Source: Gemmatimonadota bacterium
Lineage (GTDB): Bacteria > Gemmatimonadota > Gemmatimonadetes > Gemmatimonadales > Gemmatimonadaceae
Assembly (NCBI GenBank): GCA_018969225.1
Contig: JAGWYS010000004.1
Coordinates: forward strand, 1 to 42,764
Direction of reading: 5' to 3'
Length of the DNA stretch: 42,764 bases
This document shows positions 39,053 to 42,764 of this stretch, piece by piece. The notes beneath the pieces are model-generated. The model did not search any database. It was given only the letters and a program-made list of their open reading frames with translations, and was not told the origin of the DNA. Numbering within the stretch: the stretch's first letter is position 1; the number at the start of each line of letters is the position of its first letter. The translations under genes and the position numbers were made by a program.

Positions 39053-41104
39053 GTGCCCGACCCCGTCGCCCCCGCTGGAGAGGACCCGGAGCTTCGCGCC
39101 CTGGTTGAGCAGGCCCTCCAGGCCACCTACGAGCTGGGGGCCGAGATCGGGCGTGGGGGCATGGGCATCGTCTACCGCGCCCGCGATCGCCGCCTCAAGC
39201 GGCAGGTCGCCATCAAGCTGCTCCCGCCCGAGCTGTCGTTCCGGCGCGACGTCCGCACCCGGTTCCTGCGCGAGGCGGAGACCGCCGCCCAGCTGAGCCA
39301 TCCCAACATCGTCCCCATCTACTCCGTGGACGAGATCGGGAATCTGGTGTTCTTCGTGATGGCGTGCGTGGACGGGGACAACCTGGCGCGGCAGCTGCAG
39401 CAGCGCGGGGCGCTCCCCATCGACCAGGTGCGGCGCTGGACCCGCGAGGTGAGCGAGGCGCTGGCCTACGCCCACTCCCGCGGGGTGATCCACCGCGACA
39501 TCAAGCCCGACAACATCCTGGTGGACGCCATCGACGGCCGGGCGGTGGTCACCGACTTCGGGATCGCCCGCGCCGCCTCCGAGTCGGGGGACGCCTCCCG
39601 GCTGACCGCCACCGGCGCGGCCATCGGCACCCCGGCGTACATGTCCCCCGAGCAGGCCTCCGGCGACCGGGACGTGGATGCCCGCAGCGATCTGTATTCG
39701 CTGGGGGTGGTGGCGTACCAGATGCTGTCCGGCGAGACCCCGTTCACCGCCGGCACGATGCCGGCGATGCTGGTCAAGCATCTCGCCGAGACGCCCGTCC
39801 CGGTCGCACAGCGCCGCCCCGACGTGCCCCCCGACCTGGCCGAGCTGGTGATGCGCCTGCTGGCCAAGAGCCCCGCCGACCGCATCCAGTCGGCCACCGA
39901 GGTGTCGCAGGCCATCGGCACCGGGGTGCTGCCCCCCGCTCCCGAGCGCGCCCGCGCGGCGGGCGGGGCCGCCCGTTCCCCGATCCCGCTGGATGGCTCC
40001 CCCATCGGCGGGATGCCGCCTGGCGGGGCGCCGTCGCCCGCGACCTACCGGGCGCCCTCCTACACCGAGCGCACCGGGGTGGTGTCCGTGGCCGGCGTGG
40101 CGGAGGGGGCCGGCATGGCGCCGAGCGCGCCGCGCGCCGCGGGATCGGGCGGCGCCACGGCGGCTGAGATGGTGCGGTGGGAGGCCGTGCCCGTGGAGCG
40201 ATTCCGGAAGAAGCTGGGGCCGTACCTGATCGTGAACAGCGTCATCCTGGTGCTGGCCATCATCAGCACGGTGGACCTGCTCACCATCTCCGCCTTCTGG
40301 ACCATCTTCCTCGCGTTCCAGTACTCGAAGCTGTGGACCGACGGGTACGACTGGCGCGACGTCCTGCGGCAGCCGCGCGATCGCGAGTTGGGGGACGTGC
40401 TCAGCGACTTCGGCGAGGAGGTGGAAGCCACCTTCAGCAAGCGGGCGCGCGAGCGGCTGCGCACCCGGGGGCATTACACCAGCGGACGGCCGCGCACCCG
40501 CGACGGGGTGCCCATGGCGCCGCCGGCGGGCGTGCCGGCGCTGGCGCCGGGCGCCGTGGATGCCACGCTGTCCACGCTGGCGCCGGACGTGCAGCACGAG
40601 GTGCGGCGTGTGCGCCTGGCGCAGGGGGAAGTGTCGCGGATTTTCGCCGGGCTGCCGACGGGGAGCCGCCGTGGCGCGCCCGACCCGCGCGACCTGGCCC
40701 CCATGGTGCAGGCGGGGGTGGCCGCGGTGGTGCGCGAGCTGGCGGACGATGCGGCGCGCGGCACGGCGGGGCCGCTGGCGGCCATTGAGCAGGAGATCGC
40801 CCGGCTGGAGGCCGAGGCCAATCCGATGGACGCGGCGGGGAGCGAAGCGCGCGTGCGCCGACTGGCCCAACTGCGCCGGGAGCGGCGGCGCGCCGGCGAC
40901 GGGCAGCACCGGGCCGCCGGGCGCGTGGCGCAGTTGCGCGGGTGCGCGGTGGCGCTCGAGGCGATGGGGCGTGTGCTGCGCGAGTGGCAGGCGGCCGGCG
41001 GTGGGGCGGGTGACGGGTACGTCGCGGAACTCCTGCCGCTGATGGGCGAGCTGGGAGAGGCGGCGGCCGCGCTCACGCGCCCCGCGCCCCCCACGGCCGC
41101 GTGA
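39053..41104 (+). CDS. Membrane Ser/Thr protein kinase, copy 1 of a tandem pair
   Basis: 683 residues from a GTG. The kinase domain (about 27-290) is complete: GRGGMG (33-38), Lys55, HRDIKPDN (147-154), DFG (168-170), GTPAYMSPEQ and DLYSLGVV. A Pro/Gly linker (about 290-370) leads to a two-helix membrane module (about 391-407 and 410-427) followed by DGYDWRDVL. The helix pair resembles the 2TM domain of histidine and Ser/Thr kinases. The C-terminal 230 residues are helical and cytoplasmic (coiled-coil-like, QEIARLEAEANPMD). The stop overlaps the GTG of the second kinase, so they are coexpressed. Confidence 0.93.
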   Translation: MPDPVAPAGEDPELRALVEQALQATYELGAEIGRGGMGIVYRARDRRLKRQVAIKLLPPELSFRRDVRTRFLREAETAAQLSHPNIVPIYSVDEIGNLVFFVMACVDGDNLARQLQQRGALPIDQVRRWTREVSEALAYAHSRGVIHRDIKPDNILVDAIDGRAVVTDFGIARAASESGDASRLTATGAAIGTPAYMSPEQASGDRDVDARSDLYSLGVVAYQMLSGETPFTAGTMPAMLVKHLAETPVPVAQRRPDVPPDLAELVMRLLAKSPADRIQSATEVSQAIGTGVLPPAPERARAAGGAARSPIPLDGSPIGGMPPGGAPSPATYRAPSYTERTGVVSVAGVAEGAGMAPSAPRAAGSGGATAAEMVRWEAVPVERFRKKLGPYLIVNSVILVLAIISTVDLLTISAFWTIFLAFQYSKLWTDGYDWRDVLRQPRDRELGDVLSDFGEEVEATFSKRARERLRTRGHYTSGRPRTRDGVPMAPPAGVPALAPGAVDATLSTLAPDVQHEVRRVRLAQGEVSRIFAGLPTGSRRGAPDPRDLAPMVQAGVAAVVRELADDAARGTAGPLAAIEQEIARLEAEANPMDAAGSEARVRRLAQLRRERRRAGDGQHRAAGRVAQLRGCAVALEAMGRVLREWQAAGGGAGDGYVAELLPLMGELGEAAAALTRPAPPTAA

Positions 41105-42764
41105 GTCGGCTCCCGGCCTCCGTGACCGACGCCCCCGACCTGCAGCTGCTGCGCGCCCGCGTCGAGGAGGCGCTGGGGGCGCAGTATCGCCTGGGCGCGG
41201 TGCTGGGGCGCGGGGGGATGGCCGTGGTCTTTGCCGCCGAGGACGTGCAGCTGCAGCGCCCGGTGGCGCTCAAGGTGCTCCCCCCCGACCTGGCGGTGCG
41301 CCCCGACGTGCGCGAGCGGTTCGTGCGCGAGGCGCAGGTGGCGGCGCGCCTCAATCACCCGCACATCGTCCCCATTTACGCGGTGCACGAGGCGCCGCAG
41401 CTGGTGTGCTTCGCCATGGCGCAGGTGGTGGGGGACACGCTGGCCCAGCGGCTGCGCCGTGACCCGCAACCGCCGTGGGAGCAGGTGGCGGCGTTGCTGG
41501 AGCAGGTGGCGGACGCGCTGGCCTATGCCCACGCCGCGGGGGTGGTGCACCGGGACATCAAGCCCGACAACGTGCTGCTCGACCGCGCCTCGGGGCGGGT
41601 GCTGGTGACCGATTTCGGCATCGCACGCGCCATGGAGGGGGGGAGCCGGCTCACCCAGACCGGGGTGGCCATGGGGACTCCCTCCTTCATGAGCCCCGAG
41701 CAGGCCACCGGCGAGCGCGAGGTGGACGGCCGCAGCGACCTGTACGCCCTGGGGGTGGTGGGCTACCTGCTGCTCACCGGGACGCTCCCCTTCGAGGCGC
41801 CCAACACCCCGGCGCTGCTCCTCAAGCACGTGAGCGAGCCGCTTCCTCCCGTGCGCGTCCGGCGGGCGGAAGTGCCGCCGCCGCTGGCGGACGTGGTGGA
41901 ACGATGCCTCGCCAAGCGCCCCGAGGACCGGTTCCCGCATGCGCTGGCGCTGCGCGACACGCTGCGCGTGCTGCAACGCTCCGGGGTGCTGGGGGGGAGC
42001 GCGCCGCAGGCGCACGCGGTGTTGCCGGTGGGGCTCCCGCCCCGGCAGGGGGACAAGCCGGGGCATCGCGCGGAGCATTGGTCACCCCGCCCGGTGTCGG
42101 CCGGGCTGTCCGTCCCCTCCGCCCCGCTTCCCCCCGCGGAGGTGGAGCCGGCGCCCGCCAAGCTGGAGCGTCGGGTCCGGCGGTTCCGGGGGCAGGTGGT
42201 CTGCTCCGCCTTCGTTCTTGCGGGGCTGGCGGTGCTCAATGCGTTCACGAGCTCCTACCCGTGGGTGCTGTGGGTGCTGTTCGGGATGACGGTGTCGCTC
42301 CTGCGCCGCTTCCAGAAGCTGCATGAGGACGGGGTGGGCTGGCGCGACGTGATCGGGGCCCGCGGGGCGCCCCGGGCGCTCCCCGGCGCGGCGGACACCG
42401 CCGAGGCGCGCCGGCAGGGGCGGTTGGCGGCGCTGGCCTCCGCGGAGGTGCTGGCCTCATCGCTGGGTGCGCTGGTGCGCGCCGCCGTGGATGACCGGGT
42501 CGCGCTGGAGGAGGTGGCGGCGTCGCTGTCGCCCTCCGACCGTGCGCTGGTGCCGGAGTTGGAGGAGACGGGCGACGCCCTGCTGGGGCGCATCGGCACC
42601 CTGGCGGGCGCGCTGGCGCGGCTGGAGCGCGACCTCCCCCGCGAGAGCCCGCTGTCGGCGGGGGGCGCGGCGCCGTCGTCGGACCAGTGGGCGCTGCTGG
42701 AGCGCCAGCGCGCGTCGCTGGAGGCGCTCGAGGCGCGCCGGGCGGAAATGCGCGACCAGGTGGA
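41101..42764 (+). CDS. Membrane Ser/Thr protein kinase, copy 2 (3' end beyond the window)
   Basis: An open frame from the GTG at 41101 to the end of the window, at least 554 residues. Kinase domain: GRGGMA (36-41), Lys58, HRDIKPDN (150-157), DFG (171-173), GTPSFMSPEQ, DLYALGVV. A linker leads to a two-helix module (VVCSAFVLAGLAVLNAF and YPWVLWVLFGMTVSLL) and DGVGWRDVI, the same layout as copy 1, then a helical C-terminal region ending in coiled coil (LLERQRASLEALEARRAEMRDQ). It is a diverged paralog of copy 1 and GTGA-coupled to it, so the two may act as a pair. Confidence 0.92.
   Translation, partial: MSRLPASVTDAPDLQLLRARVEEALGAQYRLGAVLGRGGMAVVFAAEDVQLQRPVALKVLPPDLAVRPDVRERFVREAQVAARLNHPHIVPIYAVHEAPQLVCFAMAQVVGDTLAQRLRRDPQPPWEQVAALLEQVADALAYAHAAGVVHRDIKPDNVLLDRASGRVLVTDFGIARAMEGGSRLTQTGVAMGTPSFMSPEQATGEREVDGRSDLYALGVVGYLLLTGTLPFEAPNTPALLLKHVSEPLPPVRVRRAEVPPPLADVVERCLAKRPEDRFPHALALRDTLRVLQRSGVLGGSAPQAHAVLPVGLPPRQGDKPGHRAEHWSPRPVSAGLSVPSAPLPPAEVEPAPAKLERRVRRFRGQVVCSAFVLAGLAVLNAFTSSYPWVLWVLFGMTVSLLRRFQKLHEDGVGWRDVIGARGAPRALPGAADTAEARRQGRLAALASAEVLASSLGALVRAAVDDRVALEEVAASLSPSDRALVPELEETGDALLGRIGTLAGALARLERDLPRESPLSAGGAAPSSDQWALLERQRASLEALEARRAEMRDQV

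Follow-up and report, generated by a model that had tools for sequence, protein, structure and literature searches.

PknB-like Hanks-type Ser/Thr kinases include PknA and PknB of Mycobacterium tuberculosis and PknB of Staphylococcus aureus; PASTA kinases have one transmembrane (TM) helix. A different arrangement is found in YabT of Bacillus subtilis, which the consulted parts of two papers describe as a membrane Hanks kinase that lacks an extracellular receptor domain and has one C-terminal TM helix together with a basic, DNA-binding juxtamembrane region (PMC6333020; PMC3708118), and which is activated through DNA according to the consulted part of one of them (PMC6333020). Here we describe two overlapping genes for membrane Ser/Thr kinases, K1 and K2, in a 42,764-nucleotide (nt) stretch of DNA, hereafter the window, which is one entire contig (JAGWYS010000004.1) of a Gemmatimonadaceae metagenome-assembled genome (MAG; 375 contigs, 86% complete), so that K2, within its tail, is cut short by the end of the sequence. 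Both belong to a family of kinases with a two-helix membrane hairpin (2TM) and a mostly helical tail, whose genes stand back-to-back with lonA across the order Gemmatimonadales. This order-wide pairing, together with the tail family, is a stronger result than the heteromeric pair that an initial annotation of this DNA had proposed for K1 and K2. The kinase genes have the following features:

39053..41104, + strand: K1, membrane Ser/Thr kinase (2TM hairpin, helical tail) of 683 amino acids (aa), GTG start (open frame)
39128..39904, + strand: K1 kinase domain, residues 26-284 (Pfam PF00069, 4.8e-51; catalytic residues)
40187..40339, + strand: K1 2TM hairpin, residues 379-429, with a 5-residue loop (AlphaFold2 helices; PF13239 over residues 383-429, 19.2 bits)
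40340..40363, + strand: DGYDWRDV after K1 TM2 (read from the sequence)
40388..41077, + strand: K1 helical tail, residues 446-675, presumably cytoplasmic (AlphaFold2; tail family)
41101..41104, + strand: GTGA overlap, K2 start on the K1 stop (TGA; read from the frames)
41101..42764, + strand: K2, membrane Ser/Thr kinase (2TM hairpin, tail) truncated at the contig end (554 aa visible, GTG start)
41185..41937, + strand: K2 kinase domain, residues 29-279 (PF00069, 6.6e-45)
42172..42303, + strand: K2 2TM hairpin, residues 358-401 (PF13239, 21.1 bits; 24.7 to 25.1 in a second search)
42328..42351, + strand: DGVGWRDV in K2, rare among other K2

The likeness to PknB-like kinases lies in the catalytic part: the kinase domain of K1 matches the PknB chain 1mru_A (7.5e-58), and the structure model of a full-length K2 orthologue (stretch L119) aligns with M. 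tuberculosis PknA (4ow8) with 40% identity over 269 columns. However, K1 and K2 carry neither PASTA nor any other outside domain; PASTA repeats are absent from their Pfam hits, and the PASTA kinase profile NF033483 gives 309.5 and 290.5 bits, under its cut-off of 450. In place of the single helix they have the hairpin, followed by a tail of their own. Like YabT, K1 has no extracellular receptor domain, but the family has two TM helices and then about 230-250 mostly helical residues, rather than a single C-terminal TM helix. Thus, the sensorless architecture that the initial annotation regarded as unusual is indeed present, but it is not unprecedented, since YabT had set the example (in the consulted parts of PMC6333020 and PMC3708118).

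The best explanation as a whole, to which we give a probability of roughly 0.5, is that K1 and K2 form a coupled pair, assembled into oligomers through their tails, in a module that works with Lon. The pair would derive from one ancestral Gemmatimonadales membrane kinase encoded back-to-back with lonA. Its hairpin would act as an anchor that leaves kinase domain and tail in the cytoplasm, and since almost nothing lies outside the membrane, the input would have to come from the membrane itself or via the tail, as the initial annotation had also suggested. The tail helices may assemble the kinases into homomers where there is a single kinase and into K1-K2 heteromers in most Gemmatimonadaceae, with trans-autophosphorylation depending on assembly, and the kinase module may act with Lon in envelope or protein-quality stress. 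Such a system would add, beside YabT, another receptor-free route for membrane Hanks kinases, as well as a possible phosphorylation input to Lon.

Kinase domains and membrane hairpin

By their sequence features K1 and K2 are Hanks-type Ser/Thr kinases, with the G-loop, the VAIK lysine, HRDxKxxN, DFG and APE-type residues all present in both, so that the complete kinase domains claimed for them are borne out. The catalytic residues are also kept by position in 51/51 K2 rows, 14/14 single kinases and 63-65 of 65 K1 rows, the K1 exceptions being L181, which is cut short, and L162, which deviates near its start. K2 is therefore not a pseudokinase by sequence. In the relative's K1 of L162 (L162:2669-4642) the G-loop glycine and the VAIK lysine are absent from the alignment, perhaps owing to a frameshift near the start.

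The AlphaFold2 model of K1, built on a 63-row alignment (mean predicted local distance difference test score, pLDDT, 82.7), shows helices at residues 379-404 and 410-429, followed by further helices up to residue 675. The L119 model, which stands in for K2 with its truncated tail, has helices at residues 442-476 and 479-508 and again a helical tail. The two-helix segment and the long helical tail ascribed to both proteins are thus recovered. The segment from before TM1 to past the WRDV motif (see below) spans 61-64 residues in the 65 K1 rows, 64-66 in the 14 single kinases and 63-69 in 44/51 K2 rows, the remaining seven being misaligned there. The 5-residue loop and this near-constant length leave no room for an outside domain, in agreement with the initial annotation. 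The K1 hairpin is flanked by basic residues at both ends, so that kinase domain and tail should both be cytoplasmic.

Members of the family match the Pfam 2TM domain PF13239, but K1 and K2 of the window score at or slightly below its gathering cut-off of 24.8 bits, with 19.2 bits for K1 and 21.1 for K2, the latter rising to 24.7 in a later search and to 25.1 when the frame's neighbours were included. Several single kinases score clearly above the cut-off, and at E<=0.01 the domain is found in 13/14 single kinases, 29/50 K2 and 27/63 K1 (the K1 rows L162 and L181 were excluded from this count and from alignment A1). Among the matches listed in a literature search, no paper title concerned a bacterial PF13239 domain.

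The initial annotation had further pointed to a shared DG..WRDV motif. Both window kinases do contain it, but past the kinase domain the pattern W[RH]D[VIL] occurs in 56/65 K1, 10/14 single kinases and only 2/51 K2, one of the two being the K2 of the window (counted on sequences rather than on the alignment, because 7/51 K2 rows are misaligned in the 2TM columns). Given its scarcity in K2, the motif is not conserved as a trait of the pair; it probably goes back to the ancestor and was lost by most K2.

Pairing with Lon

On its other side K1 is adjoined by the following elements:

36252..38795, - strand: Lon protease of the lonA type, divergent from K1; 847 aa, counted from the likely start (38795) (LON_substr_bdg, AAA, Lon_lid and Lon_C above cut-off)
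38796..39052, no strand: Lon-K1 intergenic region with conserved blocks (alignment of 11 regions, including that of the window)

Gene order was assessed in 80 stretches selected for tail similarity, irrespective of their gene arrangement, and in 20 more from the sister families f2 and f3. A script found Lon divergent beside the kinase in 93/100 stretches; for L147 and L169 it had picked another kinase on the far side of Lon, and the K1 there is likewise divergent from Lon. Of the remaining five, L181, L197, L235 and L246 run into a contig end and L191 has no such kinase, so that the divergent pairing holds in 95/95 assessable loci from the three families of the order. By contrast, among 16 outgroup genomes of the class (five other families) with a matching Lon, none (0/16) has a kinase match (E<=1e-3) within about 5 kilobases (kb) upstream.

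Whether this adjacency reflects function is a separate matter, and there is about an even chance that it is frozen gene order, or sharing of a promoter region, between functionally unrelated genes. In favour of this view, none of the papers listed in literature searches, by title and opening of the abstract, deals with such a kinase-Lon system. On the other hand, the genes on the kinase's other flank vary between families while the Lon side stays constant, and an order-wide pairing that is missing from the outgroups fits less well with mere inertia. Within the intergenic region, TGCTACACT precedes K1 in 9/11 aligned sequences, the window having TGCTACCGT, and the GTG start of K1 is kept in all 11. 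The conserved blocks may belong to a promoter; a sigma-factor reading of them was considered and found unsupported. A further conserved block, GCACGATCCGCACC-like, lies near Lon.

In L185, L187, L188 and L189 a frame of about 100 aa on the Lon strand separates Lon from the single kinase; it may be spurious, lying opposite the start of the kinase.

The tail family

The 2TM segment and tail of K1, used as a query, matched 84/295 genomes of the class, and a profile built from 39 tail rows (A4) matched 231/395 genomes of the phylum. Within the order, whose total of 228 was counted from the kinship-sorted listing of tail matches, the profile matches 218/228 genomes at E<=1e-3 and 208/228 below 1e-12, the ten weaker matches having E-values between 5e-8 and 1e-11. 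Another 13 weak matches fall in families outside the order; the stretch from one of these genomes (G104, L191), fetched via another match, contained no such kinase. With the phylum search as positive control, the profile gave zero matches at E<=1e-6 in three other phyla (199, 188 and 198 genomes; 585 in total). The Pfam 2TM domain is found in 49/150 genomes of the phylum, all 49 within the three families of the order, although G039, at least, has no match other than a small non-kinase frame. A profile search, as the initial annotation had called for, revealed a conserved tail family. Most Gemmatimonadales in the sample have the kinase, it is paired with Lon at every assessable locus, and its tail family did not turn up in the other phyla sampled; together these features make it a testable unit.

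A tail related to A4, albeit more weakly, also closes a second type of kinase, found in the genus g4 genomes G349, G045 and G051 and the genus g3 genome G201 (L311:1477-3426, L313:1483-3429, L314:1-1947 and L315:1-1743). These proteins span about 580-650 aa in the stretches; their hydrophobic membrane region is longer, and their kinase domain is about 50-54% identical to those of the K1/K2 family. The tail is therefore a kinase-associated module that is used with more than one membrane region. Chance coiled coils were rejected as an account of the weak tail matches, since the four examined in g3 and g4 (L311, L313-L315) are all of this second type. The ten weaker matches in the order may likewise include second-type kinases instead of Lon-linked ones, and that of G349 is one.

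The tail could also be the sensor itself, reading a cytoplasmic signal such as a ligand, DNA or a partner protein, with the hairpin as a plain anchor. This view is compatible with the best explanation, and we place it somewhat below even odds. The single kinases have invariant blocks close to the C-terminus, the hairpin exposes almost nothing outside, the second kinase type places a related tail behind a different membrane region, and YabT, as the consulted part of PMC6333020 describes it, offers a precedent for cytoplasmic input. However, neither a known fold nor a ligand came to light: a profile search of solved structures with the tail gave weak matches only (best E 0.045), from which no fold was assigned, and in a fold search with the L119 K2 model all of the 50 matches listed were kinase structures, none of them on the tail.

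In the window the last helix of the K1 tail (40900-41101) has changed more than its counterparts in relatives; many BLAST matches end about 44 residues early, and the tail sits on a very long branch in a quick tail tree.

Origin and natural variants of the tandem pair

The heteromeric pair was originally suggested by the GTGA overlap of the two genes, which is present as described. Among 64 Gemmatimonadaceae stretches, a complete K2 follows K1 in 49, a kinase-less K2 in two and a K2 cut by the contig end in one, giving a tandem pair in 52/64, while 12 have none adjacent; directly downstream of K1 genes that lack K2, remnants of K2 were sought and none were found. By contrast, f2 and f3 have a single kinase in all 32 stretches with enough downstream sequence (34 were taken; in L183 and L234 the contig ends too early to judge a second kinase). 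The gaps of 48 measured tandem pairs, which are approximate since starts were chosen by position, range from -50 to +128 nt; 25 pairs overlap, 17 of them by 4 bases, and K1 and K2 are probably translationally coupled.

In the kinase tree K1 forms one group (Shimodaira-Hasegawa approximate likelihood ratio test, SH-aLRT, 97) and the K2 sequences cluster together, separate from long-branch outgroups, two of the five outgroup rows lying on very long branches inside K2 and formally splitting it. The tree includes L197 without assigning it to a group, and L191, which has no kinase, is in no tree. The single kinase is probably ancestral, and in the simplest reading of the tree K1 and K2 would have arisen by one duplication at the base of the Gemmatimonadaceae, an older duplication with losses in f2 and f3 being a possible alternative.

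The natural variants (single, paired, separated and with a kinase-less partner) hint at which parts matter. In genus g13, K2 is represented in three of four genomes by a frame of 297-302 aa in which the kinase domain is absent and the 2TM segment and tail are kept; the frame of the fourth, near a contig end, has 212 aa. These kinase-less K2 are under purifying selection, with ratios of nonsynonymous to synonymous substitution rates (dN/dS) of about 0.23, 0.22 and 0.11 in three comparisons among L151, L153 and L276, which do not include the kinase-less K2 of G318 (L275). Two genomes of genus g7 carry K2 at distances of about 205 and 229 kb from K1, and a third has a K2 match on another contig (loci of this genus at L269:2817-4940 and L270:4385-6451); the notion that g7 had lost K2 was dropped once a genome-wide search had located it elsewhere in the genome. 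The g7 K1 tails group with K2 tails in the tail tree (SH-aLRT 95), and a tail swap in g7 K1 is possible; the tree is given little weight because it contains one wrong-frame row (L270) and the very long window branch. In genus g3, 12/13 genomes have a K1-like match only, and G352 has K1 and an intact K2 on separate contigs; in genus g4, K1 occurs without K2 in three genomes, and neither was found in the fourth, G349 (the g3 and g4 genomes are drafts with completeness of 84-99%). Taken together, the g13 frames and the genera with K1 alone indicate that the 2TM-tail part of K2 can merit keeping without a kinase, and that K2 is also dispensable.

These variants bear on the possibility that K1 and K2 went separate ways after an ordinary tandem duplication, each forming homomers with its own targets and the overlap reflecting operon compaction. 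In keeping with such independence are the solitary kinases of f2 and f3, the K1 genes found alone in the majority of g3 and g4 genomes, the unlinked K2 of g7 and the faster evolution of K2 (median distance 0.47 vs 0.38 for K1 in the kinase part, and 1.11 vs 0.95 in the tail). However, a K2 that drops its catalytic domain and keeps its 2TM segment and tail under purifying selection is better explained by a partner role, with which the retention of K2 in both g13 and g7 would fit. Moreover, the pairwise divergences of K1 and K2, after removal of Lon divergence, correlate at 0.58-0.64, which exceeds the -0.05 to 0.40 obtained for K1 or K2 against three neighbour proteins (44, 32 and 45 genomes). 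Independence of the two kinases hence remains tentative, with the odds tilting against it.

Several points also weigh against the coupled pair and its proposed module. Correlated divergence is expected as well for paralogues under like constraint and could explain part of the signal, and the kinase-less K2 is less constrained than the K1 of the same two genomes (0.23 vs about 0.15 for L151/L153). The families f2 and f3 manage with single kinases, and because no K2 was found in 12/13 g3 genomes and in the three g4 genomes with K1, a heteromer is not required there; co-occurrence of K1 and K2 is not obligate. The initial annotation had itself named kinases occurring singly in relatives as the finding that would speak against a pair, and in f2/f3 (32/32), g3 (12/13) and g4 (three genomes) they do, while most Gemmatimonadaceae have both. 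Furthermore, K1 of the window itself has a diverged final tail helix, and conserved gene order need not imply joint function. The heteromeric pair thus remains reasonable but not obligate, with the tandem arrangement, the K2 retained in g7 and g13 and the correlated divergence on its side. The boldest extension, in which the order-wide lonA-paired family would form sensorless membrane oligomers via its lineage-specific tail, with K2 able to act as a kinase-free scaffold and with Ser/Thr phosphorylation, directed at Lon or at Lon substrates, coupled to proteolysis by Lon, is unlikely.

Further observations

A search of plasmid DNA gave zero matches, and the named database records of the same protein, matching across both kinase and tail, come from Gemmatimonadaceae and Gemmatimonadetes MAGs. 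A protein family of about 394 aa occurs near the kinases in 60 stretches (for example L145:9629-10810), one member of which has no Pfam match (E<=0.01). The window's own genome is rich in kinases, with 27 matches to K1 in a draft of 3.8 megabases, nearly all of them over the kinase domain.

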